This document shows positions 26,323 through 62,634 of a stretch of DNA of 64,000 bases, in pieces. Position 1 is the stretch's first letter. Each line of letters begins with the position of its first letter. Position numbers and translations under genes: made by a program. The notes beneath the pieces were generated by a model that was given only the letters and a program-made list of their open reading frames with translations, ran no database searches and was not told where the DNA came from. The stretch covers positions 54,485,365 to 54,549,364 of the forward strand of contig CM042090.1 in assembly GCA_023512835.1 (NCBI GenBank), in the 5' to 3' direction. The DNA is from Taxillus chinensis (taxonomy: Eukaryota > Streptophyta > Magnoliopsida > Santalales > Loranthaceae).

Positions 26323-26325
26323 ACT

Positions 26326-28583: not shown

Positions 28584-28588
28584 CTCAC

Positions 28589-34295: not shown

Positions 34296-34587
34296 TCCTC
34301 CCCCACTTGATTTCGCAACGTCCTCGTTGCGTCAGCGAGTTCGGAGGAACCAAGATCGTTTGGCAACGCGCTCCTCTCGATCGCAGCGCTACTCTATCCC
34401 ATCCTCGGGAACTCCACCATGGCTCGGCGGCCGATGTTGGTGGACGCGATGTGTTCAAGACCCCCTCTTGGTCGACCCCCATCTATTAGGGGCTCCCTCC
34501 CAACTTGGGATCAGGGACCACGCATATCTCTCGCGAGAGTACTTCGGCGAGCATGTGGGTACGGGCCGCAACCGCTCTGATACCACT
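34296..34587 (-). other. Miniature-element internal domain, type A (292 bp)
   Basis: Non-coding. Purine tract at the left edge (minus strand GTGGGGGAGGA) and primer site at the right edge (minus strand TGGTATCAGAGC, near 34574-34585). It is the mirror image of 35881-36170. Confidence 0.85.
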
Positions 34588-35001: not shown

Positions 35002-35007
35002 TTCCCT

Positions 35008-35421
35008 TGTCACGGGGTCAGGTTTCCTACGCCTCTCAACCCATTGCGGCACTTAGCTTTTCTATCCACGGCTCGCTAAGTTTAGCCTTTTAGGGTAGAA
35101 GCGCACGTAGACTGGTTTCGCCCTGCCACTGGGCTCATCAGGAGAACGGCTTCAGTTCCCGACCAGTTTGTGTAAGGATGGCCAAATCCCTTCTTCAACG
35201 TCAAGTCCCCGACTAGCGGCGTGCTCCCCGCATTCAACCGGGTCGGCACGTTTGAACTCTGAAGGGGTTCCATCCGTTTTCCTCCACGAACTGCCTGGAA
35301 CCTTCCGCTACGCACCATCTATGCTTTCAACCAACCCCTCTCTTTTACGTAGCACGAATACATTCCTGAATCGTGCCACTAAGAAATGTCCCGCCAACAC
35401 CACGCTGCTCGGGTCGTGACA
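35008..35421 (-). repeat. Miniature-element LTR 3, type B (414 bp)
   Basis: It has the same length and ends as LTR 2. The purine tract of the adjoining internal domain (TTCTCCTCCACCC) follows directly. Confidence 0.88.
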
Positions 35422-35847
35422 TTCTCCTCCACCCAATCCTCGCAACCTCCTCATTGTGTTTGTCGACATTGCTTCCCCGCAGACGATGGCATTGTTACCT
35501 AGACACCCTCCCACTCGCCCAATGTCAACAGCTTGGACATCGCTTCCCCGCAGGTTGCAACACCTTTACCAAGATGCTCGCCCGCTCGTCTAATGTCCAA
35601 AGGATAGAAGCCTTCCAAGATCGCTCTGACGCGCTCCTTCGTACTCCCTTGCCCAACTCTGTATCACACTCTAGGATACTCCAACTCTATGGACACGATG
35701 CGTGCAAGACCTTCTCTTGGTCGACCCCCATCTGTTAGGGGCTCCCTCCCAACTTGGGATCAGGGACGACGCATATCTCTTGCAAGAGTACTTTGGCGAG
35801 CATGTGGATACGGGCCGCAACCGCTCTAATACGGGCCGCAACCGTTC
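35422..35847 (-). other. Miniature-element internal domain, B/A recombinant
   Basis: The first 275 bases (to about 35696, ending CCAACTCTATGGA) match the purine-tract side of type B internals in reverse orientation. The remainder, from about 35700, matches the primer-site side of type A (GGGGCTCCCTCCCAACTTGG). The primer site itself is missing; ACGGGCCGCAACCG is repeated twice (about 35807 and 35831) at the switch point. Confidence 0.75.
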
Positions 35848-36170
35848 TGAGAGGCACAAGAAACCTGACCCCGTGACATGTGGTATCAGAGCGGTTGCAG
35901 CCTGTATCCACATGCTCGCCGAAGTACTCTCGCGAGAGATATGCGTGGTCCCTGATCCCAAGTTGGGAGGGAGCCCCTAACAGTTGGGGGTCAACCAAGA
36001 GGAGGTCTTGAACGCATCGCGTCCACCAACGTCGGCCGCCGAGCAATGGTGGAGTTCCCGAGGATGGGACAGAGTAGCGCTGCAATCGAGAGGAGCGCGT
36101 CGCCAAAGGATCTTGGTTCCTCCGAACTCGCTGACGCAACGAGGGCGTTGCGAAATCAAGTGGGGGAGGA
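35848..36170 (+). other. Switch point: 31-bp LTR stub and type A internal domain
   Basis: 35848-35878 is the last 31 bases of a forward LTR (ends CCCCGTGACA). A forward primer site TGGTATCAGAGC (35881-35892) and a type A internal domain follow, ending GTGGGGGAGGA before LTR 4. The orientation of the array inverts here. Confidence 0.8.
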
Positions 36171-36572
36171 TGTCACGCCCCGAACAGCGAGGTGCTAGCA
36201 GGCGTCTCCCAAGTGGCGCAGGTGCGCGCTACTTGCGGAGGGGCAGAGTGGAAAGCATAACTGGAGCGGACGGGATAGGCTCAATGGCAGTTCGTGCGGG
36301 AGATTGATGGAGCCCCTTCGAAGTTCAGACGTACCGACCCGGTTAAATGCGGGGAGTACGCCGCTAGTCGAGGACTTGACGTTGAAGAAGGGATTTGACC
36401 ATCCTTACACAAACTGGTCGGGAACTGGAGCCGTTCTCCTGATGAACCCAGTGACAGGGCGAAACCAGTCTATGTGCGCATCAACCCTCAAAGGCTAAAC
36501 TTAGCGGACCGTGGATAGAGAAGCTAATTGCCGCAATGGGTTGAGAGGCGCAACAAACCTGACCCAGTGACA
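36171..36572 (+). repeat. Miniature-element LTR 4, type A (402 bp)
   Basis: TGTCACGCCCCGAACAGCG to GACCCAGTGACA, forward. Same subtype and length as LTR 1. Confidence 0.88.
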
Positions 36573-36967
36573 AGTGGTATCAAAGCCGAACCGGCCCGTA
36601 TCCTAAAGACTCGCCGAGCACTCTCGCGAGTAGCGTGATCCCGAGGTGGGAGCTCACAGAGGTGAGTCAACCGATACTGTCTTTCACGCCTTTCGTCCAT
36701 AGAGTTGGAGTATCCTAGAGTGTGATACAGAGTTGGGCAAGGGAGTACGAAGGAGCGCATCGGAGCGATCTTGGAAGCCTCCTATCCTTTGGACATTGGG
36801 CGAGCGGGCGAGCATCTTGGTAAAGGTGTTGCAACCTGTGGGGAAGTGATGTCCAAGCTGTTGACATTGGGCGAGTGGGAGGGCGTTGAGGTAACGATGC
36901 CATCGCCTGCAGGGAAGCGATGTCGACAAACGCAACGAGGACGTTGCGAGGATTGGGTGGAGGAGAA
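36573..36967 (+). other. Miniature-element internal domain, type B (395 bp), first copy
   Basis: AGTGGTATCAAAGCC primer site at the left edge and GGGTGGAGGAGAA purine tract at the right edge, with no open frame of meaning. It is nearly identical to 37382-37776. Confidence 0.85.
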
Positions 36968-37381
36968 TGTCACGACCCGAGCAGCGTGGTGCTGGCGGGA
37001 CGTTTCTCAGTAGCACGATTCAGGAATGTATTCATACTACGTAAAAGAGAGGGGTTGGTTGAAAGCATAGATGGTGTGCAGCGGAAGGTTCCAGGCAGTT
37101 CGTGGAGGAAAACGGATGGAACCCCTTCGGAGTTCAGACGTACCGGCCCGGTTGAATGCGGGGAGCACGCCGCTAGTCGAGGACTTGACGTTGAAGAAGG
37201 GATTTGGCCATCCTTACACAAACTGGTCGGGAACTGGAGCCGTTCTCCTGATGAGCCCAGTGGCAGGGCAAAACCAGTCTACGTGCGCTTCAACCCTCGA
37301 AGGCTAAACTTAGCGGACCGTGGATAGAGAAGCTAAGTGCCGCAATGGGTTGAGAGGCGCAAGAAACCTGACCCCGTGACA
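36968..37381 (+). repeat. Miniature-element LTR 5, type B (414 bp)
   Basis: TGTCACGACCCGAGCAGCG to CCCCGTGACA, forward; same length as LTRs 2, 3 and 6. Confidence 0.88.
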
Positions 37382-37776
37382 AGTGGTATCAAAGCCGAAC
37401 CGGCCCGTATCCTGAAGACTCGCCGAACACTCTCGCGAGTAGCGTGATCCCAAGGTGGGAGCTCACAGAGGTGACTCGACCGATAGTGTCTTACACGCAT
37501 TGCGTCCATAGAGTTGGAGTATCCTAGAGTGTGATACAGAGTTGGGCAAGGGAGTACGAAGGAGCGCGTCGGAGCGATCTTGGAAGCCTCCTATCCTTTG
37601 GACATTGGGCAAGCGGGTGAGCATCTTGGTAAAGGTGTTGCAACCTGCGGGGAAGCGATGTCCAAGCTATTGACATTGGGTGAGTGGGAGGGCGTCGAGG
37701 TAACGATGCCATCGCCTGCGGGGAAGCGATGTTGACAAACGCAACGAGGACGTTGTGAGGATTGGGTGGAGGAGAA
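37382..37776 (+). other. Miniature-element internal domain, type B (395 bp), second copy
   Basis: Same primer-site and purine-tract edges and the same length as the first copy; only scattered substitutions are seen. Confidence 0.85.
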
Positions 37777-38190
37777 TATCATGACCCAAGTAACGTGGTG
37801 CTGGCGGGACGTTTCTCAATAGCACGATTCAGGAATGTATTCGTGCTACGTAAAAGAGAGGGGTTAGTTGAAAGCGTAGATGGTGCGCATCGGAAGGTTC
37901 CAGGAAGTTCATGGAGGAAAACGGATGGAACCCCTTCGGAGTTCAGACGTGCCGACCCGATTGAATGCGGGGAGCACGTCGCCAGTCAAGGACTTGACGT
38001 TGAAGAAGGGATTTGGCCATCCTTACACAAACTGGTCGGGAACTGTAGCCGTTCTCCTGATGAGCCCAGTGGCAGGGCGAAACCAGTCTATGTGCGCTTC
38101 AACCCTCAAAGGCTAAACTTAGCGGACCGTGGATAGAGAAGCTAAGTGCCGCAATGGGTTGAGAGGCGCAAGAAACCTGAACCCGTGACA
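37777..38190 (+). repeat. Miniature-element LTR 6, type B (414 bp)
   Basis: It begins TATCATGACCC, where two bases have changed from TGTCACGACCC, and ends ACCCGTGACA at the right target duplication. Confidence 0.88.
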
Positions 38191-38194
38191 CTAC

Positions 38195-40414: not shown

Positions 40415-41197
40415 ATGGCACCCAAGCTCTCCCTTTCTGGCGTAAATCCCAGCCATCTGGTCAATTGGCCTGCAATTTCCGATCCTCCAGCTTGGTTCTT
40501 CGAACTACGCCCCCTTTTGGAAGCCTCCCATATTATAAATCTGGTTTCCAACCCTGTCGATCTTCTCATCGACGACATCACCGAGTATTACCAGCATATC
40601 CACTGCACCACCAACTCCATTCTTTCCCATGTTCAGGGTGAATCCATCGTCATCACCCCCGCCATCCTTCGTTCCGCTCTCAACCTACCCACTAGTGAAC
40701 CTCAACGTCCGGAACCAGAAACAATGGCAGCTTCCATGGGCTGCACTTACAAAGGGAAGGAATACAAGGTGAAGTCCTTCCACGGTTGCTACCGGTGTAT
40801 GGCGACCATCCTCAGTCGCTATCTTTTGGCTCGCACCTTCGCTCTCGACTCTGTTCTGTATGACCTTTTGCTGGCCATGTACAGAGTCTTCGAAGGTCTC
40901 CCGATGGACTGGGGGACATTCTTGTTCCAATTGCTGAAGAACGGGCCCAAGAACCAATCTTTTGGGCGGATCCTCAACATAGCCTTCCGGCATCTGCGTC
41001 CGTCCCATTTTAATGGAACTGGCACTATCTCTTTCACCCAGGCCTATTATATCCGCCATCTTACGCCTAACAGGACCATGACGGCTCGCCGACCTTTTGC
41101 TACTCTTCGCCTCCTTCCCGTATCGGAACAACAGGGCAGTTCGGTTGGTGACCCAGCCGACAGCTATGCTCCCGAAGTTAGCTCTGCTCACCGGTCC
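40415..41197 (+). pseudogene. Element B ORF3, N-terminal part, cut by solo LTR D
   Basis: The frame opens at ATG 40415 (MAPKLSLSGVNPSHLVNW; purine at -3 and G at +4) and stays open for 261 codons to RS at 41197, where LTR D is inserted. It aligns without gaps to residues 1-260 of ORF3 in element C at roughly three of four residues. The block GESIVITPAILRSALNLP followed by CMATILSRYLLAR and DLLLAMYRVFEG resembles the 'putative plant transposon protein' domain found in plant transposon ORFs. The rest of the protein resumes at 59139. No signal peptide is visible. Function of the domain is unknown. Confidence 0.82.
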
Positions 41198-43103: not shown

Positions 43104-43274
43104 TGTCATCATTGGTGTTCGTCCGGGCCCATTTGGGGTGAGCTCAAACTAAACCAATGGTGAGAAAATTTAGAGTCGCCACCAACTGTTTTTGGGGTAC
43201 AGTTGGATATCCTCTACCTTAAGTAGTAAAATGTGTGGTTTGCGTTATCAGAGAAGGGTTCGGGAGTTAGTTAC

Positions 43275-44557
43275 TGTTGGATCAAACCCAGAATTTGGAT
43301 AATGCTGATAAAGCCTTATGTAATTTGATCTGTGATCTTTTGTGTTTATTTGATCATTGCAGAAGATATGTTATTAATCCGGAGATGCACTCGTAAGAGC
43401 AAAGCTAAGGACAGGATACATAATCCTGATCCGGACAAGAGTGAGTGTCGTCAAACATTTGGTAAATAACCAAGTCATCAATACATACGGAATAAGGAAC
43501 ATTCGCGCGGACTAAGAACTTAAAAGCTACGGATTGCGGAATATGTTCCTAGTGCCTCAAACGGACTAAGTCAAATTGATACGGAGTAAAGAAGTATTAA
43601 TGAAAAATAAGGACCCGAGTCTTTATTCGCACGGAGTAAGGAAACTAGATGCGGAGTAAGGAATCCGGACAACTTTACTCATACGGAGTAAGGAAGCGCT
43701 AGTACGGAGTAAGCATTCCGAACCCTTAGACTCGCCCGGAGTAAGGAACTTACATACGGAATAAGGAACTTACATACGGAGTAAGGAACTTACATATGGA
43801 GTAAGCAATTTACATACGGAGTAAGGAACTTACATGCGGAGTTAGGAAGCGCTGACACGGACTAAGGATTCCAGTACTAAATAGATACGGAGTAAGCAAC
43901 TACTGACACAGAGTAAGGTTCCGAGCTTCATTAGCAATGGAGTAAGGAAAATTACACCGGACCAAGAAAATACTACTTCAACTCACCGCATTTAAAGTTA
44001 TCAGCTCGTGGCGTCCCGATGTAAGACAAACTTATTGAGAACCTGAAGAATCTTATACGTGGATCAGCCGGATATGTGGACACAACCTCAATTGTATTTG
44101 GGAACTCACAAATGCACTTATACTCATCAGACCCAAGACCTTGAGCTCCACAAACCGCAGCAGTCAAGACAGAGAGATTACCGAGGAATAGTTAGTGCGG
44201 AACGCATTTCGGAACTACAAGTTCTAAGGTTGTCTCTTAGGAATGTTTGTATAAATATTCATACTTGTATATTTGTAAAGGAGAAGGTGTGCGAACAAGC
44301 CTAAATAACCTGTGTATGCACAAGAGCTCAAAGAAGTAATCTAGGCTAGTGTGTGAATCCCTTTGTAAACAGAGTGTAAGAGAGTCTTGCTTCTATTTTG
44401 TTGTATTTATCTCTTGATAATAAAACAAAATACTTCCACTATCTGGTTATCTTCTGCAGTGATTCTATCACTTGACTAGATTAGTGTAGTGCCTTAAGAG
44501 ATAAAAGAGTTTAGATAAGAGCCTATTCACCCCCCTCTAGGTTCCAAGGGACCATCA
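43275..44557 (+). repeat. Element C 5' LTR
   Basis: TGTTGGATC to GGGACCATCA. It contains an array of CGGAGTAAGGA units; between about 43735 and 43850 they become a clean 20-21-bp tandem (TACGGAGTAAGGAACTTACA). It ends in the same CACCCCCCTCTAGG block as the LTRs of B. Confidence 0.95.
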
Positions 44558-44559
44558 AG

Positions 44560-44571
44560 TGGTATCAGAGC
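44560..44571 (+). other. Element C primer-binding site
   Basis: TGGTATCAGAGC, an exact initiator-Met tRNA match, two bases after the LTR. Confidence 0.92.
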
Positions 44572-44618
44572 AAGTCTATTTGTTCAAAAGTAGAGATCCC
44601 ACTCTTTTACTCTAAGCA

Positions 44619-46918
44619 ATGGCAGAAGAAAGTAGTATGCTATTCAACACTCGCCTTAACTCCGGAGGGGCACAAGAGCCCATCCCAAATCGAAGCAGCT
44701 GTGAAAACGTCGACCAACCTCAACCTGCTGCTGCCACCGCTCCTCAACCACGGAGTTCTGGTTTTACTCTGACGAAACCGCCCAAATTCACACCTGAGCT
44801 TTTCTCCCAATGGAAAGCTCGCATGAAGATGTTTATGGTATGCCATGATCATCTTATGTGGCCATGTCTTCATCAGGAGATTCCAATTCCGATGACTATC
44901 GGAGAACATGGAGTTAGGAGGCCAAAGACGGATGCTGGAACTTACCAACGATGAAAGAGCCTGGCGGTGTGCTAGTGAAAAGGCTCGGCTTATGTTACAT
45001 CATCTTTGGATTCCGAGGCTTTCACGGACGTCCAGGGCTGCACGACAGCAAAAGCTGTTTGGGATAAACTGGCAATCTTCTATGAGGGGAGTCAGTCCTA
45101 AATGCAAAATATGATATGTGCTCTCAGACAGAATTTCGAGAGTTTCAATCACAGACCTGGCGAATCCCTTGAAAGCATCTATCGGAGATTCGGCAAGCTC
45201 ATTCTAGAGCTAAAAACTGTCAATGAGCACTACACTCAGTCTCAAATAAATGACAAGTTCTTTCGATCCTTGCCGGATCGATACTACTCCAAGCAGCTCC
45301 AGATGCAAGCTGACAAAAACTGGCCATTCACTGCCCTTGAGGAAATATATGGAGAGCTTCGGACTCATGAGGTCAGATTCAAATACATTGACCGTGATGA
45401 GAAGATAGCTCGGAAAGAAAAAGGGGTAGCCCTCAAAGCTACGGAATGCTCCAGTAATCATTAAGAGGATGATATGGATGAGTCAGAGAATTCTGACTCA
45501 GACGCAGAAGAGGAAATAACTCTTCTTATCAAATCCTTTGAATGATTCCTTCGGAAAAGTAGAAAAGGATTCAGAAGAGGTTCCTCATCATCCAGAAGGA
45601 AGGAACGATCAGAGTCAAGCTCCCAAGAATGCTTCAACTGTGGAAAACTCGGTCATTGGGCCAAGGAATGCAGAACCAAATCAAAAGTGGCTGAGAAAAG
45701 TGACAAGGTAACTCCTCGCCGTTCCACCTCAGACAACAGCAAGAACAAGAGGAAGGTGTTCGTGACAAAGTACATCAGTGGCTCGGAAGAAGAGGAAGAA
45801 TCCTCGGATGATGAGCCAACTCCTTAGCCGAACGTCTGCCTCATGGCAAATACTGAGGTACCTTCTATCTCTGAGCTCATGAGTCAATTAGAATCTCTTA
45901 TTAGTGAGCGTGATCATGAAAAGAATGAGAGACAAATAATTACTCAAATGTACAAAGATGTGGAAAGTCAGAATAAACGCCTTGAATTTACTATCACTAG
46001 ACTTGAAAAGGACATAGTTGACTTCAGAGGAAAAGAGGCTTGGTATCATGATCTAAGAGCTGAAAATCATCTGTTAAATACCAACTTAATGGGCCTAAAA
46101 GTTATCGTCAAACGACTCGAAAATGAACTGGAACAGGAAGGGAAATAAATCGTAAGTGGCTAAAATCCGGTGAAATAGCCTCTACCTTTAGGACTGATCC
46201 TGGCAACATCCGAGTCAAACCAGGCCTAGGTTCAGAACCATCAACTTCCATAGCTCAAGCTACTGAGTGCCCTTCGGATTTCACTCCTAAACTAACCAAC
46301 TTATATCCTGTTAGTACATCTAAACCATTGGATGGCTTCATTTTAGGTGGCACCATAGTTTATGACTGTGGAGTTGAGGCGGTTACTGCACTTCCCGAAG
46401 CAGTAGCACCCGTAACTAATGATGAAGGGAAGGTTGCTGCAGTTAAAGCCAAAACTGTAGCACCCAAAAAGAAAGGAAAGACTAAGGCTGACGCATCTAG
46501 GGCCAAGAGCGTGTCACCCAAACGCAAAGGATTAGGCCACAGGGAACAGAGTAGAAAGTCTGTAAAATCCAAGAGACCTGTATCCCCTGTTTGTACTTCA
46601 CATTATAGTGTCTGTTCCATCTGTAGGGAAATGGGTCATTATCACTATAAATGTTGGAGTTTATCTGATAACTGGCTTTGTAATCAAATTCAATCCAATA
46701 AAGATCAGTTTAATAAAAGGGTTTCTTTGAGCAAAACAAAATCTAAACATCAAAGGAGTGTCTCTCCCAAGAAAACCCAAATAAGAGAAGCAGTTGAAAC
46801 TAACAAGTTAAAGTCAACTTGGAGAGCTAAAAGACCTAGCAAAATCAAATCTGGAACTGTTGATAATACTGCTGCTCTCTCTAACCGCCCGAAACAAGTT
46901 TGGGCACCAAAAGTGTAA
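44619..46918 (+). pseudogene. Element C gag, few frameshifts and stops
   Basis: ATG 44619 begins MAEESSMLFNTRLN. The copia-type gag domain (FTPELFSQWKARMKMF) spans about 44760-45460. Zinc knuckle 1 (CFNCGKLGHWAKEC) lies at about 45631-45672, and a coiled-coil region at 45843-46148. Zinc knuckle 2 (CSICREMGHYHYKC) at about 46612-46654 is followed by a Lys/Ser-rich tail. Compared with B there is an extra base at about 44938 and a missing base at about 44990, plus stops near 45461, 45543, 45826 and 46146. The frame ends VWAPKV-TAA at 46918, exactly as in B. Gag would form the particle; two knuckles and the length fit Sireviruses. Confidence 0.88.
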
Positions 46919-49900
46919 ACTGTTGTCTTTTAGGAGCATCTCTGGAATGCATTGCCGGATCACTTGAAGTTAAAGGTCAATCAAAGCAAGTGGATCCTCG
47001 ATAGTGGATGCTCCGGACATATGACGGGTGATCAGACTCTGCTCGTAGAAGTTAATGAAAAACGAGGTCCATCCGTTTCATATGGTGACAACAGCAAAGG
47101 TAAGACTGTCGGGTATGGCACTTTAACTAACGGCTGTGTATCAATCACTAGAGTTGCATTAGTCGAAGGTTTAAAGTATAATTTGCTGAGTGTCAGTAAT
47201 TTATGTGACAAAGGATTTACTATTTCCTTTATGTCCAACTCCTGTACAGTAAGAGAAAACTTATCCGGAGATATTAAGTTATCCGGATCAAGAGATGGGG
47301 ACATATACTCAATGGTCTTAAGAAATAATTCTTCTGACCCTGTATGCTTTCTCACTAAAGCTTTAGATGAAGATAGTTGGTTATGGCACAAGCGATATGC
47401 ACATTTAAACTTTAAGACATTGTCTAAGTTAGCGTCACTTGATCTTGTCACTGGTCTACCTAAACTCAAATTCTCCAGAGACACTCTCTGTCGAGAATGC
47501 CAACTGGCAAACAGACCAAACACAGCTTTAAGAGCAAATCAGTTAATTCAATAACTGCTCCTCTACAACTTCTTCATATGGACCTCTGTGGTCCTATTTC
47601 TATTCCGTCACTGGCTGGTGCGAGATATACCTTTGTGGTTATCGATGATTTCACTAGATACACTTGGGTGATGTTCCTGAAATCAAAGGATCAAACTTTT
47701 GAACATCTAGTAGATCTTTTCAACTGGATAAGCAACTCACAAGGACTGAGCATAAAGTGCATCAGGAGTGATCATGGTACAGAATTTAATTTTTCAGAAA
47801 TGAGATCATATTGTTCTGAACAGGGCATATAGCATGACTTCTCTGCTCCTAGAACTCCACAACAAAATGGGGTAGCTGAGCGCAAGAATCGTACTTTAGT
47901 TGAAGGTGGTAGATCCATGTTAGCAGGGGCAACACTTCCTCTCAGTCTATGAGTTGAAGCTATGTCCACTGCCTGCTATGTTCAGAATAGAACTCTAATA
48001 AATAAATCTACCATGAAAACACCCTATGAGATGTGGAGAGGACGAAAACCTTCAATTTCACATTTCAGAGCTTTTGGGTGTACTTGCTATATATTGATAA
48101 ATGGCAAAGAGACCCAAAATAAATTTGAACCAAAATCTGATGATGGGATTTTTGTCGGATACTCACTACATAGCAAGGCTTATCGGGTCTTCAATAGAAA
48201 ACTTTTTAAAGTTGAAGAATCTATCCATGTGACCTTTGATGAAACTAATCTTGATTGGTCAACAGTTGCTTCTTCAAGTTCTAACGTACAGGTTCAAGAC
48301 AACAACATCGACTATTCCAAGTTTATGACTGTTACTGTTATACATACTGACCAACCAAGTGGCACCAAAGGAGCACAAAGAAATGATATGGACGATGCTA
48401 CGGATGACTCGGACTCTGGACTACCGTTTAGCTTCGGACATACTCCTACGGATACCCAAAATTCCGGAGCCCCTTCAAGTTCGTCCGGACTAATTAACAC
48501 TGACAGAAACAGTGTTGAAGAACCATCTAGTTCAACCGTACCTTCTAATACGGAAAGAACTGGTCCGGAAGAAGCTCAACCAGCAGATATACGTGATCCA
48601 CCAAATCTGGCAGAGCTTCAAATTATTCACGATCAACCATCACATGCACAAAATTACAGATGGACCCAAAACCATCCCTCAGATCAAGTGATTGGTGATC
48701 CTACTATTGGTGTAAGGACAAGAGCAGCCACCTCAAACATGAGTCTTTACTCGTGTTTTCTATCTCAAATAGAACCAAAGGTGGTAGATGAAGCTCTTCA
48801 GGATTCAAATTGGATAGCAGCCATGCAAGAAGAGCTGAATCAATTTAAGAGGAACAATGTGTGGTCCTTAGTACCAAGGCCTAAGTCTCAGGAAGTCATT
48901 GGAGTTAAATGGGTGTTTCGGAACAAGCTTGATATGGATGGAATAGTAATCCGGAACAAAGCCAGACTGGTAGCGAAAGGATATCGTCAAGAAGAAGGAA
49001 TAGACTATGATGAGACCTTTGCTCCAGTAGCAAGACTTGAGGCAATTCGGATGTTTCTGGCATACGCTTCATATGAAAACTTCATAGTTTATCAAATGGA
49101 CGTCAAGAGCGCATTCCTGAATGGAGATTTTCAAGAGGAGGTTTACGTAGAACAACCTCCCGGCTTCATTGAACCTAAAGCAGGACATCTGGTCTACAAA
49201 CTTCAGAAAGCTTTATACGGGTTGAAGCAAGCTCCAAGAGCCTGGTACGACACATTGTCTGAATTCCTACTAGCTCACAACTTCCAAAAAGGGAAGATTG
49301 ACACCACATTATTTCTACGAAAAGAGAAAGGACATACCCTAGTCGTACAGATATACGTGGATGATATTATCTTCGGATCAACGAATCCGAAGCTTTGTGA
49401 AGAGTTTGATAAGTTGATGACAGGCAAGTTTGAGATGAGCATGATGGGAGAACTGTCCTACTTCCTTGGAATAGAAGTTAGACAATTGAAGAAAGGAATA
49501 TTCATTAATTAAGCTAAGTACACACGTGATCTTATTAAGAAGTTTGGTATGGAAGGTTCATCTCCCGTCAAAACTCCCATGCCTGTTAGTGCCAAATTAG
49601 ATCCTGATGTGGATGGCATATCAGTAAATGTGACTGACTACAGAGGGATGATAGGATCATTGCTGTATCTAACAGCAAGTCGCCCAGACATTATGTTTGC
49701 AACTTGCATCTGTGCACGATATCAGGCGAATCCCAAGGAGTCACATATGCTTCATGTTAAACGGATATTAAGGTATCTCAAGGGAACGATGAATTTGGGA
49801 CTCTGGTACCCAAAGGAGTCCAACTTCACCTTATCCGGATACTCTGATGCCGACTTCGCTGGATGTCGCATCGACAGGAAGAGCACAAGTGGTACGTGTC

Positions 49901-50301
49901 AGTTTCTTGGAAATAGATTAATCTCATGGTTCAGTAAGAAGCAGAATTCCGTATCAACCTCTACTGCTGAGGAAGAATATATAGCTGTTGGGAGTTGCTG
50001 CGCACAGCTACTCTGGATGCAAAGTCAACTTACTAACTATGGTTTCAACATGTCATCTATTCCACTCTACTGCGACAACACTAGTGCAATTGCTATCAGC
50101 AACAATCCTATCATGCATCCTAAGACGAAGCATATTGAGGTCAGGTATCACTTCATACGTGACCATGTTCTCAAAAATCACATTTCCTTGGAACATGTTG
50201 CTACTGAAGATCAACTGGCAGACATTCTTACAAAGCCCCTACCTGATGCAAGATTCTCTGAACTACTCCTCCGATTATGTATGCTTGACTTCTCTGCATA
50301 G
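46919..50301 (+). pseudogene. Element C pol: protease, integrase, reverse transcriptase, RNase H
   Basis: Pol continues in the gag frame after TAA 46916-46918. Protease: WILDSGCSGHMTGD at about 46990-47030, intact motif. Pre-integrase: WLWHKRYAHLNFKTL and CRECQLANRP. After a frame change near 47530, integrase has Asp in HMDLCGPIS, Asp in RSDHGTEFN and Glu in NGVAERKNR; stops at 47830 and 47950 interrupt it. A long open stretch, 47962-49512, holds the linker and the complete reverse transcriptase ([40 protein letters not shown], catalytic IYVDDIIFG). A TAA at 49510 precedes RNase H (SDADFAGCRIDRKSTSG, CDNTSAIAISNNP), which ends at 50301. About four lesions separate it from a continuous frame. 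Confidence 0.92.
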
Positions 50302-51878
50302 CTTCACACTTACATTACCCAACAGTATACTTACTATCAGAACATGCATGGTGCTTCTATTGAAAGTAGAAGATACATACTGACTTTAATGCTGATCATA
50401 CTTACTGATTAACGGCTTCATGCTTCTGATATTAATATTAACTTCATATTGGGAGGATGCTTGCGTTTCCCGACTGAAGTCGTTTAAGCTAACATGACTA
50501 AAGTTTACATGATTTACCTCTTTCTGGTTTCATGATCTTAATTTCCACTGATCACCACATGACAAAAGCATGTTCATTTAGATTACTCTATTAACATGTA
50601 TAGTTGAAGAAGTGAAATGGGTTAGCTCGGAATGCCTGGTGGATGAATACTCAATCGCAATCTGATCAGCTTCTGAAGTATAGTTTTCTAATAAGATAAA
50701 CAGTGCTGTATTTCTACAAACCGGAAAGGTCAACCGAGAGGATTGCACAATCTACGGGGGAGAAAATGCTTTATATATTATTCAAGTAATACCCCCCGTA
50801 TATGTCTCATGACCTCTTTCCTGGCTGTCTATTTGAGGGGGAGTCTTTCATTGAGAGGATCAAATGATCTATGGGGGAGCTTACATTTCATCTATTACCT
50901 CAGTAATGACCCCCTAATATGTCTCGGATACTCCCTCCTCTAAACCCTTACTTCCGGATCTGACTGGACATGCTGTTTTGGATCAGAAAAGTGGCATGCT
51001 TGGATGTATTTTCTTTCTTCAACCATGCATGTTAATCGACTAATCACCTGCTTACTTTTGACATGTGTTCACTTCCTCATTTTTCACTCATGAATCCTAA
51101 ATTGGCCAAATCATATGATCTTTAATTAATCTTAGCTACGTTGTTCAGCAAGACGGTTTCGCTATGTTGACCTATATGAACTTGTGTATTGTTATTTGAC
51201 ATATGCCCTAATTCAGTAATATTGATCATTTTCACGTATGTATATGTCTCTTACATGCTTTGTAATGCATAAGTTCTGATTCTCATTAGTTCGGATTACG
51301 TCGTTTTCCACTGATTATTTTCTCTAATCCGTACTAATCCTTGCCTGTTAAGCTTTTGTATTTTCAGTTCATTTTTTTTAGCTACAGGTTCAGATTTTCT
51401 TTGCAACAGTATCGATCAATCTAGTCCATAGTCTTGGATTTGAAGTGTTGTGGTACTTCTCTTCTCTTCGACTTATTGACTGCAAAGGAATCTACTTTAC
51501 TCTCTCACCGAACTCTGTCTACTACGGACACGGTCTACTTTTTATCCGGATACTCCTCCTCGACTATTATTTACTCTGGATGATTGTCGGTTCATTCCTC
51601 CGGACTCCTGACACAGTCTAATTGCGACAATCCAAGTCTTCCTATATGTCGCGTGCTTTTGAGGAGGAATCATGATGATTCATTAAATGCAAATCTCGGG
51701 ATGCACACACACTACTCTGGATGGCAACCAGCTGTTACACTTATTTGGTCATGCGGTCTCTATGACATCGTTTCATTCGGAGGCGCATCGATATCCAGAC
51801 TAATGACATCAGCCTGTCTAGCGGGTCCCTATTTCACTCGCCAATTCCTAGACCCACTGACATTTGCGGACTCGGTCT
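50302..51878 (+). other. Element C spacer between pol and ORF3
   Basis: Non-coding, 1.6 kb. AGGATTGCACAATCTACGGGGGAG (shown only to its tract at 50753-50763), TTTGAGGGGGAGTC (about 50831) and CTATGGGGGAGC (about 50870) form a cluster of polypurine tracts with duplicated flanks, also present in B. The remainder is AT-rich with scattered small frames. Confidence 0.72.
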
Positions 51879-51999
51879 TATATGTTCTGGTCATTCCTGC
51901 GAAGCACAAGTATTGCTCATTTGAAATCCCTAAACCTCTCGTTGCTCCTTCCATCGCCAAGACCTCACCTTTCCTCTTCTCCTTCAAAGTTCATCTGCA
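51879..51999 (+). promoter_or_regulatory. Degenerate TATA and leader before ORF3 in element C
   Basis: TATATG (51879-51884) stands where B has TATAAATA, 121 bases before the ATG. The following CCCTAAACCTCTCGTTGC and pyrimidine-rich leader match B. Weaker than in B. Confidence 0.35.
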
Positions 52000-54738
52000 A
52001 TGGCACCCAGAATCTCTCTCTCCGGCGTTAATCCTGGCCATCTGGTTGATTGGAATGTTGTCTCAAACCCGCCGGACTGGTTTTTCCAACTTCGCCCTCT
52101 ACTCGAAGCCTCGCATATACTCAACTTGATCTCCAATCCTGTCGATCTTCTTATAAACGACATTCGTGAGTATTACCAACGGATCCGTTGTACCACCGAC
52201 TCAATCATCTCCTATGTTCGCGGTGAATCCATCCTCATCACCCCCGCCGTTCTCCGCGCTGCTCTCCACCTACCCCTCGGTGAACCACAGCGCCCAAATG
52301 CCGATCCAATGGCAGCATCTATGGGTTGCACCCAAAAAGGCAAGGAATACAAGGTGAAATCCTTCCAAGGTCGCTATCGCTGTATGGCGACCATACTGAG
52401 TCGCTGTTTATTGGCCCGTACTTCAGCACTGGACTCGGTTCATTACGATCTTCTCCTGGCCATGTACGGCATTTTTGAAGGTCTTCTGATGGACTGGGGG
52501 ACGTTCTTGTTTCGCCTGCTGCAGAATGGTCCCAAGAACCATTCCTTTGGGCGCATACTTAGCATTGTCTTCCGGCATCTTCATCCGGACCACTTCGCCC
52601 GCTATGATGCTGTTCCTTTTCCCTCGGTTTATTACCTCCGTCATCTTACGCCGGATGGGAACATGACAGCCCGCCGTCCTTCTGCAGCTCTCCGCATTCT
52701 CCCTGCCTCGGAACAACAAGGCAGTTCTGTTGGTGACCCCTCCGATAGCCAAGCCCTCGACGTCAGTTCTGCACCCCGATCCTCCCGGATTCGGTCCGTC
52801 GCAGCACCTTCTCTTTCTTGGGCCTCCCAGCACAGCGTTCGTGCCGACCCGTCTGAGGTTGCGGGGCCATCTCAGCGCAGTGCCCCTAAAGCTGTTTCTT
52901 CAGTCCCCTCTGCTGTGGATGTCCCTACTCCCTCTACCTCCGCTATTGCTGCCGCGGTTGACACCGCTGTTGCTGCAGCCATTGCTGATGTCCCGGATTC
53001 TCCTCCTGAAGCTCCTTTGCCTCCCCTACCTCAACCCCGAGATTACCTAGACCATCTCTCCGCTGACACTCTAACGGACCTATGGCTCCGTTTTAGCCTT
53101 GCCCACACTGCCTCCATTCCTGACAACGATCTCCGGGTGTTTTACACACGCCATACCCAATCCCTGGAGACAATGATCATCTGGAACTTGGATCATGGCT
53201 TTCTTACGCCGGCCTCCATTCCAGATGTGCCATTCCCTACCCCCTCCAGCCCAGTCCTTTCCGCCCGAGGTCCTTCCCCTGCTAAAGCTGGCCCCTCTTC
53301 TCCTGTTGACGCCATTCCCGTGGTTGACCTATCTGGTCAAAGCGGGTCAGCTGCTCCGGATGCCTCTAATGCTCCGGCTGCCCCTTCTGCTGCTGCTGAT
53401 ACTCCTGCGGACTCCTCTGCCCAGCGCGCTCCTGCTCCTGTTCATGCGGGGGAGTCCTCCAAAGCTCCGGAGTTGGTCCTTGGGCGTGCTTCCTTTGGCA
53501 CGGTTCACTCCGACGCTGTGCTCTCCGCCCAGCTGGACTGCCACGCCCAGGCTCACAGCGTCCAAATTTCCGCCATCGCCGCCAAGGTTGATGCACTTGG
53601 TGCCCAACTCCTCTCCGCTCTCACTGACTCCTCCACCTCCATGGAGCAGAAAATGGATCTCGTCGCCTCGTCCGTCCATTCTTTGTCTACCTCCTTCGCG
53701 GACCTGGCGCACACGATGGCTCGTCCTCCCATTGCTTCCCGGTGATCTGCCAAACCGGGGGAGAGAGTGCCATCTGATCCGTCTGCCCCTTCTGCTCCTT
53801 CTGCACCACAACCACCTACTCGGGCTGAGAAGTGGCCTGCCTCTTCAGTGCTTCAGGGAGTTCAAATTCCCAAACGAAGCCGCTTCTCTCAGCCAAGCTC
53901 CTCTACTACAGCTCCAGCTCCTCCTCTATCCTCCTCATCCGCAGCTGACACCTTCCTCCCATCATACACGGCGTGTGACCCTTCTGATGCGGATGAAAGC
54001 GTGCGTAAAGCAATGAAGTCCTATGCTGTGTCTTCTGCCGAGAGAAGATGTCTCTCTGACATGTACCCTTTTTCCCTGGATGACATTCGGACCCTTTGTT
54101 CGGAAAAAGGACTCTTTACAACAGAAGACATTGATAACTTCTCCAGGGCTGCTAAAATGGAGATGAGGTTGTTTCCGTCTTTATACAAGGACGGGCACTT
54201 GTTTGAAGTTCTGTCGTGCTGGAATGAAGGCTATCTTCCCAGTGTGGATCTAATTCAGTCCTTCATCGACGGAACTGCTGAGGATAGCAAGCCATGGAAA
54301 ACACTCTCAACTGTCCTCATTCCGTACCGGATCATGTCGCCACACTTCATGATGGCTGTCTTCATGATTCAGTCCAAGCAAATGATTCTCATTGATTCTC
54401 ATCAGATAGTGGAGCACTTTGTAAGAAAGAATCAATGGGAACCACTGTGTCTCAGGCTGACTGAAGCTGTGAAGAAAGCTGGTTTATATGAAGAGTTGGG
54501 CATCACACCCTTGGGTCCAACTAAGAAGCTGAAGGTGACATTCCGGGGCAAGAAGCAAGTGCCACAACAGCCGGATGGAGATAGCTGCGGGGCATTTGTC
54601 TGTTACTTCATCAAGTTATTCTTGACTGTGGGCAAATCTTGGAGCCAACACACTACTTATACGATGAAGCAGACAATGGAGCTTAAAGAAAAGGCAGCAA
54701 CTATGATCTTCAAGTATAGTAAGCCTTATGTACCTTAG
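52000..54738 (+). CDS. Element C ORF3: transposon-protein-like domain fused to a Ulp1-like (C48) protease; one in-frame stop
   Basis: One frame of 912 codons runs from ATG 52000 to TAG 54736-54738, broken only by TGA 53743-53745, where B has CGA: a CpG transition. Residues 1 to about 245 resemble 'putative plant transposon protein' domains (GESILITPAVLRAALHLP, CMATILSRCLLAR). About 250-600 is Pro/Ser/Ala-rich, with a conserved block (PRDYLDHLSADTLTDLWLRF) and a long amphipathic helix (about 510-585). About 690-912 is the protease: His782 in SPHFMMAV, Asp799 in ILIDSHQ (17 apart, as in yeast Ulp1), Gln857 and Cys863 in QQPDGDSCGAF. C48 enzymes cleave SUMO or related proteins; the substrate here is unknown. 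No signal peptide or clear membrane segment is seen, arguing against an envelope protein. It lies between pol and the 3' LTR. Confidence 0.85.
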
Positions 54739-54870
54739 TGAAAATCTTGTATTAAGGATGAATTGTATTTTGTTGCTGATAAATGAAAATTGGTTGTGAT
54801 GTGTATTTTGTATGTTATCTTTTTACACTGCTTACCAGATCAGAGTACAAGGGTTTGGGCATATCCATAA

Positions 54871-54881
54871 TTGGGGGAGAT
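54871..54881 (+). other. Element C polypurine tract
   Basis: TTGGGGGAGAT directly before the 3' LTR (54882), preceded by CATATCCATAA as in element B. Confidence 0.88.
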
Positions 54882-56165
54882 TGTTAGATCAAACCCAGAA
54901 TTTGGATAATGCTGATAAAGCCTTATGTAATTTGATATGAGATCTTTTGTGTTTATTTGATCGTTGCAGAAGATATGTTATTAATCCGGAGATGCACTCA
55001 TGAGAGTAAAGCTAAGGACAGGATACATAATCCTGATCCGGACAAGAGTGAGTGTCGTCAAATACTTGGTAAATAACCAAGTCATCAATACATACGGAAT
55101 AAGGAACATTCGCGCGGACTAAGAACTTAAAAGCTACGGATTGCGGAATATGTTCCTAGTGCCTCAAACGGACTAAGTCAAACTGATACGGAGTAAGGAA
55201 GTATTAATGAAAAATAAGGACCCGAGTCTTTATTCGCATGGAGTAAGGAAACTAGATGCGGAGTAAGGAATCTAGACAACTTTACTCATACGAAGTAAGG
55301 AAGCGCTAGTACGGAGTAAGCATTCCGAACCCTTAGACTCGCCCGGAGTAAGGAACTTACATACGGAATAAGGAACTTACATACGGAGTAAGGAACTTAC
55401 ATACGGAGTAAGCAATTTACATACGGAGTAAGGAACTTACATGCGGAGTTAGGAAGCGCTGACACGGACTAAGGATTCCAGTACTAAATAGATACGGAGT
55501 AAGCAACTACTGACACAGAGTAAGGTTCCGAGCTTCATTAGCAATGGAGTAAGGAAAATTACACCGGACCAAGAAGATACTACTTCAACTCACCGCATTT
55601 AAAGTTATCAGCTCGTGGCGTCCCGATGTAAGACAAACTTATTGAGAACCTGAAGAATTTTACACGTGGATCATCCGGATATGTGGACACAACCTCAATT
55701 GTATTTGGGAACTCACAAATGCACTTATACTCATCAGACCCAAGACCTTGAGCTCCACAAACTGCAGCAGTCAAGACAGAGAGATTACCGAGGAATAGTT
55801 AGTGCTGAACGCATTCCGGAACTACAAGTTCCAAGGTTGTCTCTTAGGAATGTTTGTATAAATATTCATACTTGTATATTTGTAAAGGAGAAGGTGTGCG
55901 AACAAGCCTGAATAACCTGTGTATGCACAAGAGCTCAAAGAAGTAATCTAGGCTAGTGTGTGAATCCCTTTGTAAACAGAGTGTAAGAGAGTCTTGCTTC
56001 TATTTTGTTGTATTTATCTCTTGATAATAAAACAAAATACTTCCACTATCCTGGTTATCTTCCATGATGATTCTATCACTTGACTAGATTAGTGTAGTGC
56101 CTTAAGAGATAAAAGAGTTTAGATAAGAGCCTATTCACCCCCCTCTATGCTCCAAGGGACCATTA
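54882..56165 (+). repeat. Element C 3' LTR
   Basis: TGTTAGATC to GGGACCATTA, 1284 bp, collinear with the 5' LTR including the 20-21-bp tandem (about 55340-55450). Confidence 0.95.
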
Positions 56166-57839
56166 GTTACGTGTAGGGAAGGATTAGCACCCCTACAGCG
56201 CCCTTTCGGTATCTATTTTTGGAAAAAGAGGTTTTCTATTTATTGTTACTGCTGTGCTTGGGTTGGGTTTCCTAGAAAGTCTAGGCTGTTTATTTGGCTA
56301 AGTAATTTGTTAAAGTTATGGTTAAATTGATTTACCCTAAATTTCTAAAGGGAATCCTAAAAGTTTTTGTTTAAAGTGGGAAATGAAATCCTAATTTTTT
56401 TTTTTTGGTTTTTTTTATGTTTTGTTTTTTTTTTGTTTCGTTGTTTTTTTTTTGGAAAACATGTTATTTTTTTTGTTTTGCTTTGTTTTGTTTTTGTTTT
56501 GTGTGTTTTTTTGTTAACAAACATTTTGTGTTTTTTTTTTTTGTGCTTTTTTTTGTTTTCAACTTTTGAAAACTTTTTCCTTTTTTTGTTTTATTTTGAA
56601 AACCCAAAGTCATAAATGCGTATCAACATAATGAACACATACATTAAAATAAATAAACGTGAAATGTGTGATTATGACATCCACAAATAAATAAAAATAA
56701 AAGCACTCTTTTTTCTTTTTCTTTTTTTTTTCATCTTCTCTTTTTTTTTATGCCTCTCCTTGTGCTCTCTGTTTTTTTTTTTGTTTTCACTATATTTTAC
56801 ATATTACAATGTATAACATACAAAGAAAGAAAATACAAAGAAAATACAACGGCAAATACTAAAAATTACATCAAATATATAGAGATAAGCTAAAAAATGA
56901 AAACCAGGAAAATACTAAAATTACATTAAATATAAATACAAATAAGCTGAAAAAAATAGAGCAGCAAATGTAAATTACACTGACTTTGGCTTGAATGGGG
57001 CTTTAGCACGGGACGTCCGTCTGAAATATTTTGTCTGTACTGAAAGACGCTTGCTCACCCAAATCACCAAATTCTAGTAGCGCCAAGTGCAACAATCAAC
57101 TAGGACGTACTGTGGAGACTGCCAAGTTACGTTGGGATTTTTTTTGTTTTTGTGACGGAAACGTAAGAAGAAAAAAAGGGTAGACTAGAGTTGTTTTTTA
57201 TGTCTTTCTTCTGCTAAAAAAAAGAGAGCTGGAATGAAATAATAGGGAAAGAGAAGTTGGGAAGGATGGGCGATTTGGTTTTTCGGAATGGTAGAAAGCT
57301 ATCTGGGTGTTTTGTTTTGTTTTTTTTTTTTGGGGATTAGGGAGCTGGGTGTGAAGATGGCAGAAGAGCTTTTCTTCTTTTGATTTTCGGAAAAAGGTTT
57401 TGGTGAAGATCTGGGCAGGCGTTAAAGGCTTTGGGCATTTTTTAGGGTGAATCTGAGAGAAAATGGCAACACTTTTTCAGTCAGAGAGGGGGTTTTTTTT
57501 CGGGCGTAATCTCTATTCTCCTTTTAATTGCGTGGACAGAAGGCTGGATTTAAAGGGGTTGGCTGCATCTCATTAATTGCTACATTTATTGCTTTGTCGG
57601 GTGTATTATTAATCCCAATATTATTAACTTCCAGATTCTATGCTTTGTCTGGTGGTTGGACGACCTATGCATAAAATGGGGCAGCTTGTGATTGCTTTTT
57701 CGTTCTTTTGTGAGCACATGCGTCTGACAGGCGTTGAAAAGCATCTTTGACAATTGCCAGCTAATAAAAATGCATCCCGTGAGCAAACGGCGAGAGAACT
57801 AGCGAGAGAGGCCAAATAGCAGAGGTCAGAGAGTCAGAG

Positions 57840-59133: not shown

Positions 59134-59138
59134 GGTCC

Positions 59139-61076
59139 TCTTGGATTCGGTCTGTTGCTGCCCCATCCATCTCCCGAGCCTCTCAGCACAGCGTCCGTGC
59201 CGACCCGTCTGAGGTTGCGGGGCCCTCTCAGCCAACTCCTCATCCGGCTGACTCTCTAGCGTCTTCTCCCGCTGATGTCCCCGCACCTGACTCGCCTGCT
59301 GTTGCTGCTATTGTTGATGCTTCCATTGCTACGGCAATGGCAGATGTTCCTCCTTCTCCTCCGGAAGCACCGTTACCACCTCTACTTCAACCTCGAGACT
59401 ACCTTGCTCATCTCTACACCGACACCTTAACGGACTTTTGGTTCCGTTTTAGTCTCGCCTGCATTGCCTCTGTCCCTGATCACGACATCAAGGTGTTTTA
59501 CGCCAAACACACCCACTGCCCGGAGGAAATGATCGTCTGGAACTTGGGCCACGGCTTCCTTACACCAGCCCATATTCTGGACGTTCCCTTTACTGTTTCC
59601 TCCGGCCCGGCTCATGACGCCCGCGTGCCTTCTCCTGCTGAGGCTCGGCTTGCCTCTCCTGCCGTCGGTATCCCCGTCGTTGACCTCTCTAGTCAAAGTA
59701 GCTTTGATGCTCGATGTCTCTGCTGCTCCGGATGCCCCTACTGCTGTTGTTGATGCCCCTTCTACTCCTGCTGACTCATCTACCCAGCACACGCCTGCAG
59801 CCATTCTTACGGGGAGTCCTCCAAAGCCCCGGAGTTGGCACTTGGACGTGCCTCGTTTGGCACGGTTCACTCCGATGCCGTGCTATCCGCTCAACTCGAC
59901 CGCCACGCCCAAGCCCAGAGCGCCCAAATCTCTGCCGTCACTGCCAAGGTTGATGCGTTAGGCGCCCAACTCCTCTCCGCCCTGACCGACTCCTCCACTT
60001 CCATCGAGCAAAAGATGTATCTCGTCGCCTCGTCCATTCATTCTCTATCAGCTTCTTTCGCGGACTTGGCGCACACCATGGCTCGTCCCCCTACTGCACC
60101 CTGGCGATCTGCCAAACTGGGGGAGAACGTGTCTGATCCTCCTGCATCTTCCACCGCTCGTGTGGAGAAGCGACCCGCATCTTCATTGCATCCACTTTCG
60201 GGAGTTACCATTCCCAAATGCAGCCCTTTCTCTCAGCCTAGCTCCTCAAGTGCAGCTCCTCCTTCCACCACTCCATCAGCCGCTGACACCTTCCTCCCAT
60301 CATATGCGGATCGTGATCCACTTGATGCGGATGGAAGTGTTTTTCTCGAAATGTCCAAGTATGCCGCATCCAATGCCGAGAGAAGATGTCTTTCTAACCT
60401 ATACCCCTTCTCTCCTAAGGACATTAAGACTCTATGTTCCGAGAAGGGCCTATTCTCCACAGAAGACATAGAGAACTTCTCTCGAGTAGTTAAGATGGAG
60501 ATGAGGCTGTTTCCATCCTTCTACAAGGACAGACATATATTTGATATTATGCCTTGTTGGTCTGAAGGATATCTTCCTGAAGTACCTTTCATTTGGACCT
60601 TCATCGACGGAACTGCTGAGGATAGCAAACCATGGAAAAACCTTTCAATTGTCCTCATTCCGTACCGAATTCTGTTGCCACACTTCATGTTGGTTGCCTT
60701 CATGATTCACTCGAAGCAGTTGATGCTGATTGATTCTCATCAGGTTGTGGATAACAACATAAGAAAGAATCAATGGGAACCTCTATGCCTCCAACTGACT
60801 GAAGTAGTAAAGCAATCCGGACTCTATGAAGAAATGGGCCTTACCCCCTTGGGTCCAAATGAAAAGCTGAAGGCGTTGGTCCGGAGTAAGAAACAAGTGC
60901 CACAACAGCCTGATGGAGATAGTTGCGGAGCCTTTGTCTGCTTCTTCATCAAATCGCTCGTTCAAGTGAATAAGGGCTGGAACAATTTCCGCAATTATAC
61001 AATGGAGCAAACAATGGAGCTAAGGGAGAAAGCAGCAACTATGATCTTCAAGTATAGTAAGCCTTATATAACTTAA
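59139..61076 (+). pseudogene. Element B ORF3, C-terminal part with Ulp1-like domain
   Basis: The frame resumes in phase after the GGTCC duplication (SWIRSVAAPSISRASQ, matching C). The Pro/Ala-rich linker has two frame changes (about 59705 and 59815) that cancel, so 59835-61076 is again in the original frame. It covers the helix segment and the full protease: His in LLPHFMLVAF, Asp 17 residues later in LMLIDSHQ, Gln and Cys (codon 60924-60926) in QQPDGDSCGAF. It ends FKYSKPYIT at 61076, as C does (FKYSKPYVP). The codon at the C-element stop reads CGA here. The catalytic residues survive although gag and pol of this copy are heavily decayed. Confidence 0.83.
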
Positions 61077-61217: not shown

Positions 61218-62629
61218 TGTTGGATCAAGCCTAGAATTTGGATGATGCAAACAAAACCCTATGTAATTTGATCTGAGACTTTTATTGTTTCATTTTAAGT
61301 TATTACAGAAGATATGAACTTAATCCGGACCTACACAGGTGAGAGGAAAGCTAAGGACAGGATACATAATCCTGATCCAGATGAGAGTGTGCGTCATAAA
61401 ACACTTGGTACATAACCAAGTCTTCACTCATACGGAATAAGGATCATACGTGTGGACTAATGAGTTAAAGCTATGGACTGAGGAATCTGTGCCTAATACT
61501 TCAAATGGACTAAGTCAATAAATGCGGAGTAAGAATCCTAGTCTATAAGTCGCATGGAGAAAGTCACAGTTATCATGGAGTTAAAAGGCTAAGTCTTCCA
61601 CTCAAGCGGACTAAGGAAAAGAATCACGCAGTAAGAAATTCGGAGTATTCTATACATGCGGAGTATGGAACGACTTATGCGGAATAAGGACTCGAGTCTT
61701 TATTTCACATGGAGTAAGGAAATTTGATGCGGAGTAAGGAATCCGAACCTGTTACTCTTGCAGAGTAAGGATGTGCTGATACGGAGTAAGCCATCCATTC
61801 CTTTAACTCATGCGAAGTAAGGAAACTAGATGCGGAGTAAGGAAGCGTTGATGCGGAGTAAGCACTCCGACCCTCTCATTCATACGGAGTAAGGAAGCGC
61901 TTACACGGAATAAGGATTCCAGTACTAAATTGATATGGAGTAAGCAATCATTGTTACAGAGTAGGGATCCGAGCCTAGTTTAACACGGAGTAAGGAACCT
62001 TACACTGGATTCAAGAAAATGCTGCTTCAACTTATCTCTTCGCATTCAAAGTCACTAGCTCATTTGCTGCCGATGTAAGACAAACTTGTTGAGAACCTAA
62101 AGCATCTTACACGTGGATCATCCGGATATATGGACACAACTTGGACGAACTTGGGAACTCACAAACACACTTATGTTTTGAAAACGCAAGAAATTGAGCT
62201 CCACATCTGCAAAGACTTGAGACGAGAGAGGATTCTGAGGAACAGTAAATGTGCATATAGTCCGGAACAACAAGTTCCAAGACTGTCTCTCAAGGATGTG
62301 TTATGTATATATAATGTAAACCTTGTACAGAAAAAAAGGAGTGAATGCGAAAATGTACAAGAGCTCAAGTAGATCATAGAGGCTAGTGTGTGAGTACATT
62401 GTAAACAAAGTTTTAGAGAGTTGTTAAGTAGATCAAAAAGCTCTTCAAGCTTTAATTTGCTTCCATTTTGTTGTACTTATCATTGTGATAATAAAACAAA
62501 ATACTTCCACTATCTAGTTATCTTCCGCATTGATTCTATCTCTTAACCAGATAGGTGTTGTGCCAAAGAGTTAAACAAGAGTTTCGATAAGAGCCTATTC
62601 ACCCCCCTCTAGGCTCTAAGGGACCAACA
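61218..62629 (+). repeat. Element B 3' LTR
   Basis: TGTTGGATCAAGCC to GGGACCAACA, 1412 bp. Degenerate ACGGAGTAAGGA units fill about 61490-62010. It contains about 120 bp missing from the 5' LTR. GTACA follows. Confidence 0.93.
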
Positions 62630-62634
62630 GTACA

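Follow-up and report, generated by a model that had tools for sequence, protein, structure and literature searches.

What does the extra gene at the 3' end of a plant copia retrotransposon encode? The question is raised by a 64,000-nt stretch of the Taxillus chinensis genome (hereafter the window; assembly GCA_023512835.1, contig CM042090.1, positions 54,485,365 to 54,549,364, forward strand), in which a long terminal repeat (LTR) retrotransposon, element C, carries a third open reading frame (ORF), ORF3. We conclude that the C-terminal part of ORF3 resembles Ulp1/SENP proteases (Peptidase_C48) in sequence, shares their conserved active-site residues and is predicted to adopt their fold. A preliminary description of the window had placed ORF3 within an element bounded by matching LTRs and a GTTAC duplication. 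Both boundaries were confirmed, and ORF3 does lie inside the element, on the plus strand between pol and the polypurine tract (PPT) and 3' LTR (Table 1).

The C48 domain of ORF3

A hidden Markov model search, named beforehand as a check, places the domain of the lone sequence above the Pfam cut-off of 20.7 bits (E 5e-6, 26.9 bits). The equivalent domain of element B, an older relative in the same window, scores 25.8 bits, and relatives from other families score 48-63 bits. The domain is also significant as a profile, which matches SENP1 (E 4.6e-11) and Ulp1 (E 1.4e-7). Single-sequence searches are less informative: the best match of the C48 piece in PDB is weak (E 0.08), and a protein database search with the 330-amino acid (aa) piece returned 3041 candidates, none at E 1e-3.

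The residues His782, Asp799, Gln857 and Cys863, counted from position 52000, are all present as proposed, although this numbering spans an in-frame stop. In an alignment with SENP1 they fall on its HW, D, PQQ and CG stretches, and the set is invariant and in this order in 20 of 20 aligned C48 domains. The alignment comprises open copies, to which the invariance thus applies: 16 of 20 fetched stretches that had themselves been chosen as stop-free (without L054, L058, L062 and L071) and, from eight further loci, only L003 and L006. The predicted structure of the C48 part adopts the SENP/Ulp1 fold, as the preliminary description had anticipated, and its best Foldseek matches are SUMO proteases. 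An early model from four sequences was discarded (predicted local distance difference test score of 40).

ORF3 had been described as one ORF, which is not the case in element C, where a single frame is divided by a TGA codon into pieces of 581 aa and 330 aa. The proposed similarity of its N-terminus to a plant transposon protein exists as a match to Transposase_32 (PF20167), but the match is weak (E 1.2e-4, 22.5 bits, cut-off 45). The same family scores 15.2 bits in element B, 20.9 in L009, 13.5 in L016 and 34.5 in an ORF of a Ty3/gypsy element described below. A telo-box-like motif, CCCTAAACC, precedes the ORF3 ATG by 72 bases in element C and is found at the identical distance in element B and in five of six other copies examined, which suggests that ORF3 may have its own transcript, with its own promoter or leader. 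We dropped the idea of a spliced subgenomic RNA, as the AG acceptor upstream of the ATG is not common to C, B and L009.

ORF3 within its family and in other retrotransposons

We searched the genome (521 Mb in 264 contigs) with the C48 part. The best 150 of 9600 candidates all span 243-246 of the 246 residues at 89-100% identity. Thirty copies, element C among them, were selected by protein score and are a biased sample; in all 30, the PPT region and 3' LTR directly follow ORF3. His and Asp are kept in every one of these copies. Gln and Cys are each kept in 29, with a stop in place of Gln in one copy and Tyr in place of Cys in one; the aligned second piece is stop-free in 15. A second set was picked by DNA, from the best 40 of 1637 candidate PPT/3'-LTR junctions. 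Twelve of these (one being C) adjoin an ORF3 match listed in the C48 search, and 19 of the remaining 28 were fetched, all with ORF3 directly upstream (85-96% identity). All 31 junctions examined thus have ORF3, and both sets bear out that other copies of the family carry it. With the significant C48 match and the Ulp1-like predicted fold, none of the three outcomes that the preliminary description had named as refuting was obtained. In all six upstream stretches fetched from the ORF3 match list, ORF3 lies about 1.65-1.70 kb downstream of RNase H, with both on one strand.

The ratio of nonsynonymous to synonymous substitution rates (dN/dS) is 0.108 in frame among the protein-picked copies (435 pairs, biased by selection of the copies) and 1.54 and 1.62 in the other frames. 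For 300-base pieces of the DNA-picked copies (190 pairs), it is 0.38 in frame and 0.88 and 0.73 in the others. Between elements C and B, three parts of ORF3 give 0.136, 0.191 and 0.239; because these values resemble those of the computable gag-pol pieces (0.08-0.33), the ORF3 frame appears to have been kept about as strictly as pol. It could be argued that ORF3 is a passenger, a captured piece of a host gene carried without function, since many of its copies have decayed and plant transposons are reported to capture Ulp1 pieces (PMC13317346). This is improbable given its presence at every examined junction, the invariant active site of the open copies and dN/dS below one. ORF3 has long been retained as a third gene by a large Sirevirus-like copia family. 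As a separate observation, two copies (L082 and L092) have His in the place of the catalytic Cys, through more than one base change or a small shift, and possibly belong to a sub-lineage with an inactive protease.

Other families were reached through genomic C48 matches (best 150 of 4308 candidates). At C2:17236000, gag, copia reverse transcriptase (RT; 51%), the N-terminal part of ORF3 (28%) and C48 (27%) follow in order on one strand, and C2:17394500 is a near copy of this arrangement. RNase H, the N-terminal part and C48 are found at C2:27758500; at one further locus, C2:19029697, copia RT (54%) and RNase H (56-86%) lie upstream of C48. The element at C6:17797621-17805429 is Ty3/gypsy (RVT_1 E 2e-30, integrase E 3e-8). 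Its post-pol ORF of 674 aa begins with a Transposase_32-like part (Pfam E 2.4e-8, below the cut-off; 23% identity to ORF3, E 1.6e-16) and ends in C48 (Pfam E 2e-14; 28% to ORF3, E 1e-20), the E-values against ORF3 applying to a search of that 7.8-kb stretch only. The two-part ORF, Transposase_32-like and then C48, is therefore not confined to the family of element C: another copia family and one Ty3/gypsy family also have it after pol.

When 134 C48 matches were compared with the first 76 of 150 gypsy integrase matches, C48 lay 1.5-2.9 kb further on the same strand for 19 of the first 32 integrase matches (84-100%) and for 16 of the next 44; it was found in none of the 76 cases on the opposite strand or upstream on the same strand. 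Because these same-strand, downstream pairs recur, the gypsy C48 is not a lone nesting accident. In 15 gypsy pairs, the integrases are 73-78% alike whereas the C48 domains are only 32-47% alike. Several copies of this set have long open frames. Between copia families, pol pieces are about 49-86% alike and C48 about 21-31%, a contrast similar to that reported between the conserved transposase and the variable VANC of VANDALs (PMC5735166). A tree of 20 C48 domains separates the groups with full support; the gypsy group is not firmly placed (support 69-73), so any exchange between copia and gypsy may have run in either direction. The strongest C48 match of the assembly, L001 (C191:93103-96594), lies on a small contig that is possibly foreign DNA; its protein has long acidic and Ser-rich runs unlike the rest and was excluded from the comparison.

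Element C and the env-like slot

The LTR pair, the target-site duplication and an integrase ahead of an RVT_2 reverse transcriptase identify element C as Ty1/copia. Its interior has Pfam matches to copia-type gag, Pol_BBD, gag_pre-integrase, integrase (rve) and RVT_2, with several broken frames. Element C has LTRs and copia pol in place of the Mutator-type transposase and DNA-transposon ends of KIU-bearing and Mutator-like elements. The LTRs (about 1.28 kb each) are 97.4% identical, with 27 transitions and 5 transversions over 1281 aligned sites. Their Kimura two-parameter distance of 0.0255 corresponds to about 1 million years at a substitution rate of 1.3e-8 per site and year, and the LTR distance of element B (0.067) to about 2.6 million years at the same rate.

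The 5' LTR/primer binding site junction fits the Sirevirus form CA/A(T or G)TGGTATCAGAGC (PMC2829016); of the two letters allowed at the second place, it has G. The terminal PPT is positioned as in Sireviruses, and its letters, TGGGGGAG, are one base off AGGGGGAG; two Sireviruses with a variant octamer are named in PMC2829016, with the variation at the last base. Beyond the PPT-like octamers of the linker, two further variants lie within ORF3 (53447 and 53756) and none between ORF3 and the terminal PPT. A C-rich TATTCACCCCCCTCTA is found close to the LTR end, and the short inverted repeat at the PPT is present in part. We use the label Sirevirus-like, as judged by these features, because the junction fits but the PPT is one base off and the other signals are partly present. 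Each LTR copy also holds 13 CGG(A/T)NTAAG motifs (43697-43948 and 55304-55559), some in a 20-base tandem register. In contrast to most published Sirevirus repeats, these motifs lack the CGG-CCG palindrome.

ORF3 occupies the slot in which Sireviruses may carry an env-like ORF, as the preliminary description had pointed out. An env-like gene for cell-to-cell movement would be in keeping with this slot, between pol and the 3' LTR, where env-like ORFs are reported to be common (PMC3414828), and with a 19-residue stretch of mean hydropathy 1.90 in element B. However, no stretch exceeds 1.51 in element C, and the hydrophobic stretch of element B holds the catalytic His, a piece that in the model of C forms strands within the core of the enzyme. 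These hydropathy values make a membrane helix unlikely, and we regard an env-like function as very improbable.

Element C sits within one of the stretches inserted into element B. Another such insertion, in the 5' LTR of B, is an LTR-like element (18581-28583; 2.25-kb repeats, 96.5% alike) whose relatives flank element C in reverse orientation. A cluster of copies of about 420-1260 bases, in both orientations and 80-94% alike, is nested in the pol of element B (33884-38193). Elsewhere in the window (3851-9304), a Ty3/gypsy-like element has short LTRs of 385 bases that are 92.7% alike, and frames that by eye resemble RT and integrase.

Table 1. Positions in the window of element C, ORF3, element B and a further C48 relative.
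Feature	Position	Strand	Basis
Element C, Sirevirus-like Ty1/copia LTR retrotransposon	43275-56165	+	LTR pair, primer binding site, PPT, target-site duplication, copia domain matches
5' LTR, element C	43275-44557	+	alignment with 3' LTR
3' LTR, element C	54882-56165	+	alignment with 5' LTR
Target-site duplication GTTAC, left of element C	43270-43274		read from sequence
Target-site duplication GTTAC, right of element C	56166-56170		read from sequence
Primer binding site TATCAGAGC, element C; 16-base junction CA/AGTGGTATCAGAGC	44563-44571	+	compared with PMC2829016
gag-pol of element C, broken pieces, integrase before RT (copia order)	45102-50301	+	ORFs and Pfam matches
Three PPT-like octamers NGGGGGAG in linker (50755, 50836, 50872)	50755-50879	+	one exact, two one-base variants
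Telo-box-like CCCTAAACC upstream of ORF3 ATG, element C	51928-51936	+	read from sequence
First open piece of ORF3 (581 aa), weakly Transposase_32-like and then rich in Pro, Ala and Ser	52000-53742	+	ORF and Pfam
In-frame stop TGA of ORF3, element C (codon 582)	53743-53745	+	translation
Second open piece of ORF3 (330 aa), containing the C48 domain (model covers 53998-54735)	53746-54738	+	Pfam, profile, predicted fold
Catalytic-type His782 codon	54343-54345	+	alignment
Asp799 codon	54394-54396	+	alignment
Gln857 codon	54568-54570	+	alignment
Cys863 codon	54586-54588	+	alignment
Terminal PPT TGGGGGAG, element C; first base 10 bases before 3' LTR	54872-54879	+	read from sequence
Element B, related to C but older, interrupted by nested insertions	17761-62629	+	LTR pair and target-site duplication
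5' LTR, element B	17761-18514 and 28583-29058	+	LTR alignment
3' LTR, element B	61218-62629	+	LTR alignment
GTACA duplication, element B	17756-17760 and 62630-62634		read from sequence
ORF3 first part, element B (74% aa identity to C)	40415-41197	+	alignment
ORF3 remaining part with C48, element B (67% aa identity to C; frame broken mid-way)	59136-61073	+	alignment
Third C48 relative, distant and decayed (25-38% identity)	16201-17110	-	alignment

Possible role and relation to known systems

The preliminary description had offered SUMO removal from element or host proteins as a possible, inferred role. The ORF3 protein may be a protease of ubiquitin-like proteins, with SUMO as its most likely target. 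Silencing factors of the host would be its substrate, and the Transposase_32-like N-terminal part would target the protein; deSUMOylation would then release element chromatin from silencing, so that element RNA is made more freely. We give this proposal, in which ORF3 frees element RNA production by removing SUMO from host silencing proteins, about an even chance of being right. In yeast, reduced SUMOylation (ubc9, siz1 siz2) or displaced or defective Ulp1 is reported to lead to more RNA of the copia element Ty1 (PMC8585004). VANDALs that carry KIU reportedly cause hypomethylation of related elements in Arabidopsis, an effect in which their Ulp1 part may or may not take part (PMC13317346).

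Several points weigh against a SUMO-directed role in silencing escape. The case is built from position, active-site residues, predicted fold and selection on the frame. The Transposase_32 score is under the Pfam cut-off in all five proteins with the match. The Cys codon is changed or shifted in 6 of the 19 DNA-picked copies (TGY in 13), these copies being in decay. Among the matches listed, only 14 of the 40 best pol-end matches are linked to a same-strand ORF3 or junction match at 3.2-4.6 kb downstream, in a comparison of the best 150 and best 40 of thousands of candidates; none of the 40 has such a match nearby on the other strand. The binding of SUMO by MOM1 in Arabidopsis is reported to be dispensable for silencing (PMC6084981), and the Arabidopsis paper on VANC contains no word starting with 'ulp' or 'SUMO'. 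Finally, the fold matches also cover NEDD8, ubiquitin and viral processing proteases and do not single out SUMO. The protease may also have one of two other roles. A protease for NEDD8 or ubiquitin would shield element proteins from degradation rather than antagonize silencing; we consider it rather unlikely, as SUMO proteases give the best matches in both the profile and the Foldseek comparison, though a fold cannot reveal specificity. A protease that matures the element's own proteins, like the related cysteine proteases of adenovirus, African swine fever virus and poxviruses, seems somewhat less likely still.

A broader form of the SUMO proposal is possible but doubtful. In it, a portable gene combining Transposase_32-like targeting with a SUMO protease would have spread between Ty1/copia and Ty3/gypsy, settled in the env slot and counteracted silencing by sequence-targeted deSUMOylation, in retrotransposons the counterpart of VANC/KIU, outpacing pol through an arms race with host silencing.

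Among the closest known systems is KIU (Kaonashi) of Arabidopsis VANDAL/Mutator-like elements, with similar genes in melon, rice and grapevine (PMC13317346). Like ORF3, it provides a Ulp1-type domain as an extra transposable-element gene, and it is reportedly linked to anti-silencing. KIU belongs to DNA transposons with a VANC-type gene, whereas ORF3 is found in LTR retrotransposons with reverse transcriptase and has a Transposase_32-like N-terminal part. CACTA elements of Chenopodium are reported to have Peptidase_C48 in ORF2, sometimes after Transposase_24, but are DNA transposons, with a 122-bp C48 fragment reported in one type (PMC8978399). A Ulp1-like protease is also part of an element protein in NeSL and Utopia non-LTR retrotransposons (PMC4640811) and Ginger1 DNA transposons (PMC2836005). 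These are described as animal elements in which the RT protein or the transposase carries the domain as a fusion, whereas ORF3 is separate, after pol. Element C shares with Sireviruses that have an env-like ORF the copia pol, the long LTR, the 5' junction, the PPT position and a third ORF in the same slot (PMC2829016), but the Sirevirus ORF is defined by membrane and coiled-coil features (PMC3414828) and ORF3 instead holds an enzyme domain. The gypsy element resembles sunflower Athila 14, a Ty3/gypsy element with an additional 3'-end ORF partly similar to Transposase_32; that ORF has 487 aa, with no C48 mentioned in the available passages (PMC11728184), and the gypsy ORF here has 674 aa and ends in C48.

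No description of a Ulp1/C48 domain in an LTR retrotransposon was found in the literature searched, which comprised titles, abstracts and passages and left Repbase, annotation files and most subscription papers outside. Words starting with 'ulp' or 'SUMO' are absent from the main text of a review of additional ORFs (PMC7264820) and of a paper on Retand (PMC11963269). Within these sources, Ulp1 domains are already known from Mutator, CACTA, Ginger and nematode non-LTR elements, and the LTR retrotransposon carrier is new.

The function of third ORFs, env-like or additional, in plant LTR retrotransposons is an open question, and one of them is now recognisable as an enzyme. Its C48 gene is found at every junction examined of a large family, and a single genome has it in both main LTR superfamilies. 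Mutator, CACTA, Ginger and non-LTR elements are reported to carry this domain as well. The protease identity makes SUMO cleavage directly testable and offers a simple idea of how such elements may escape silencing.
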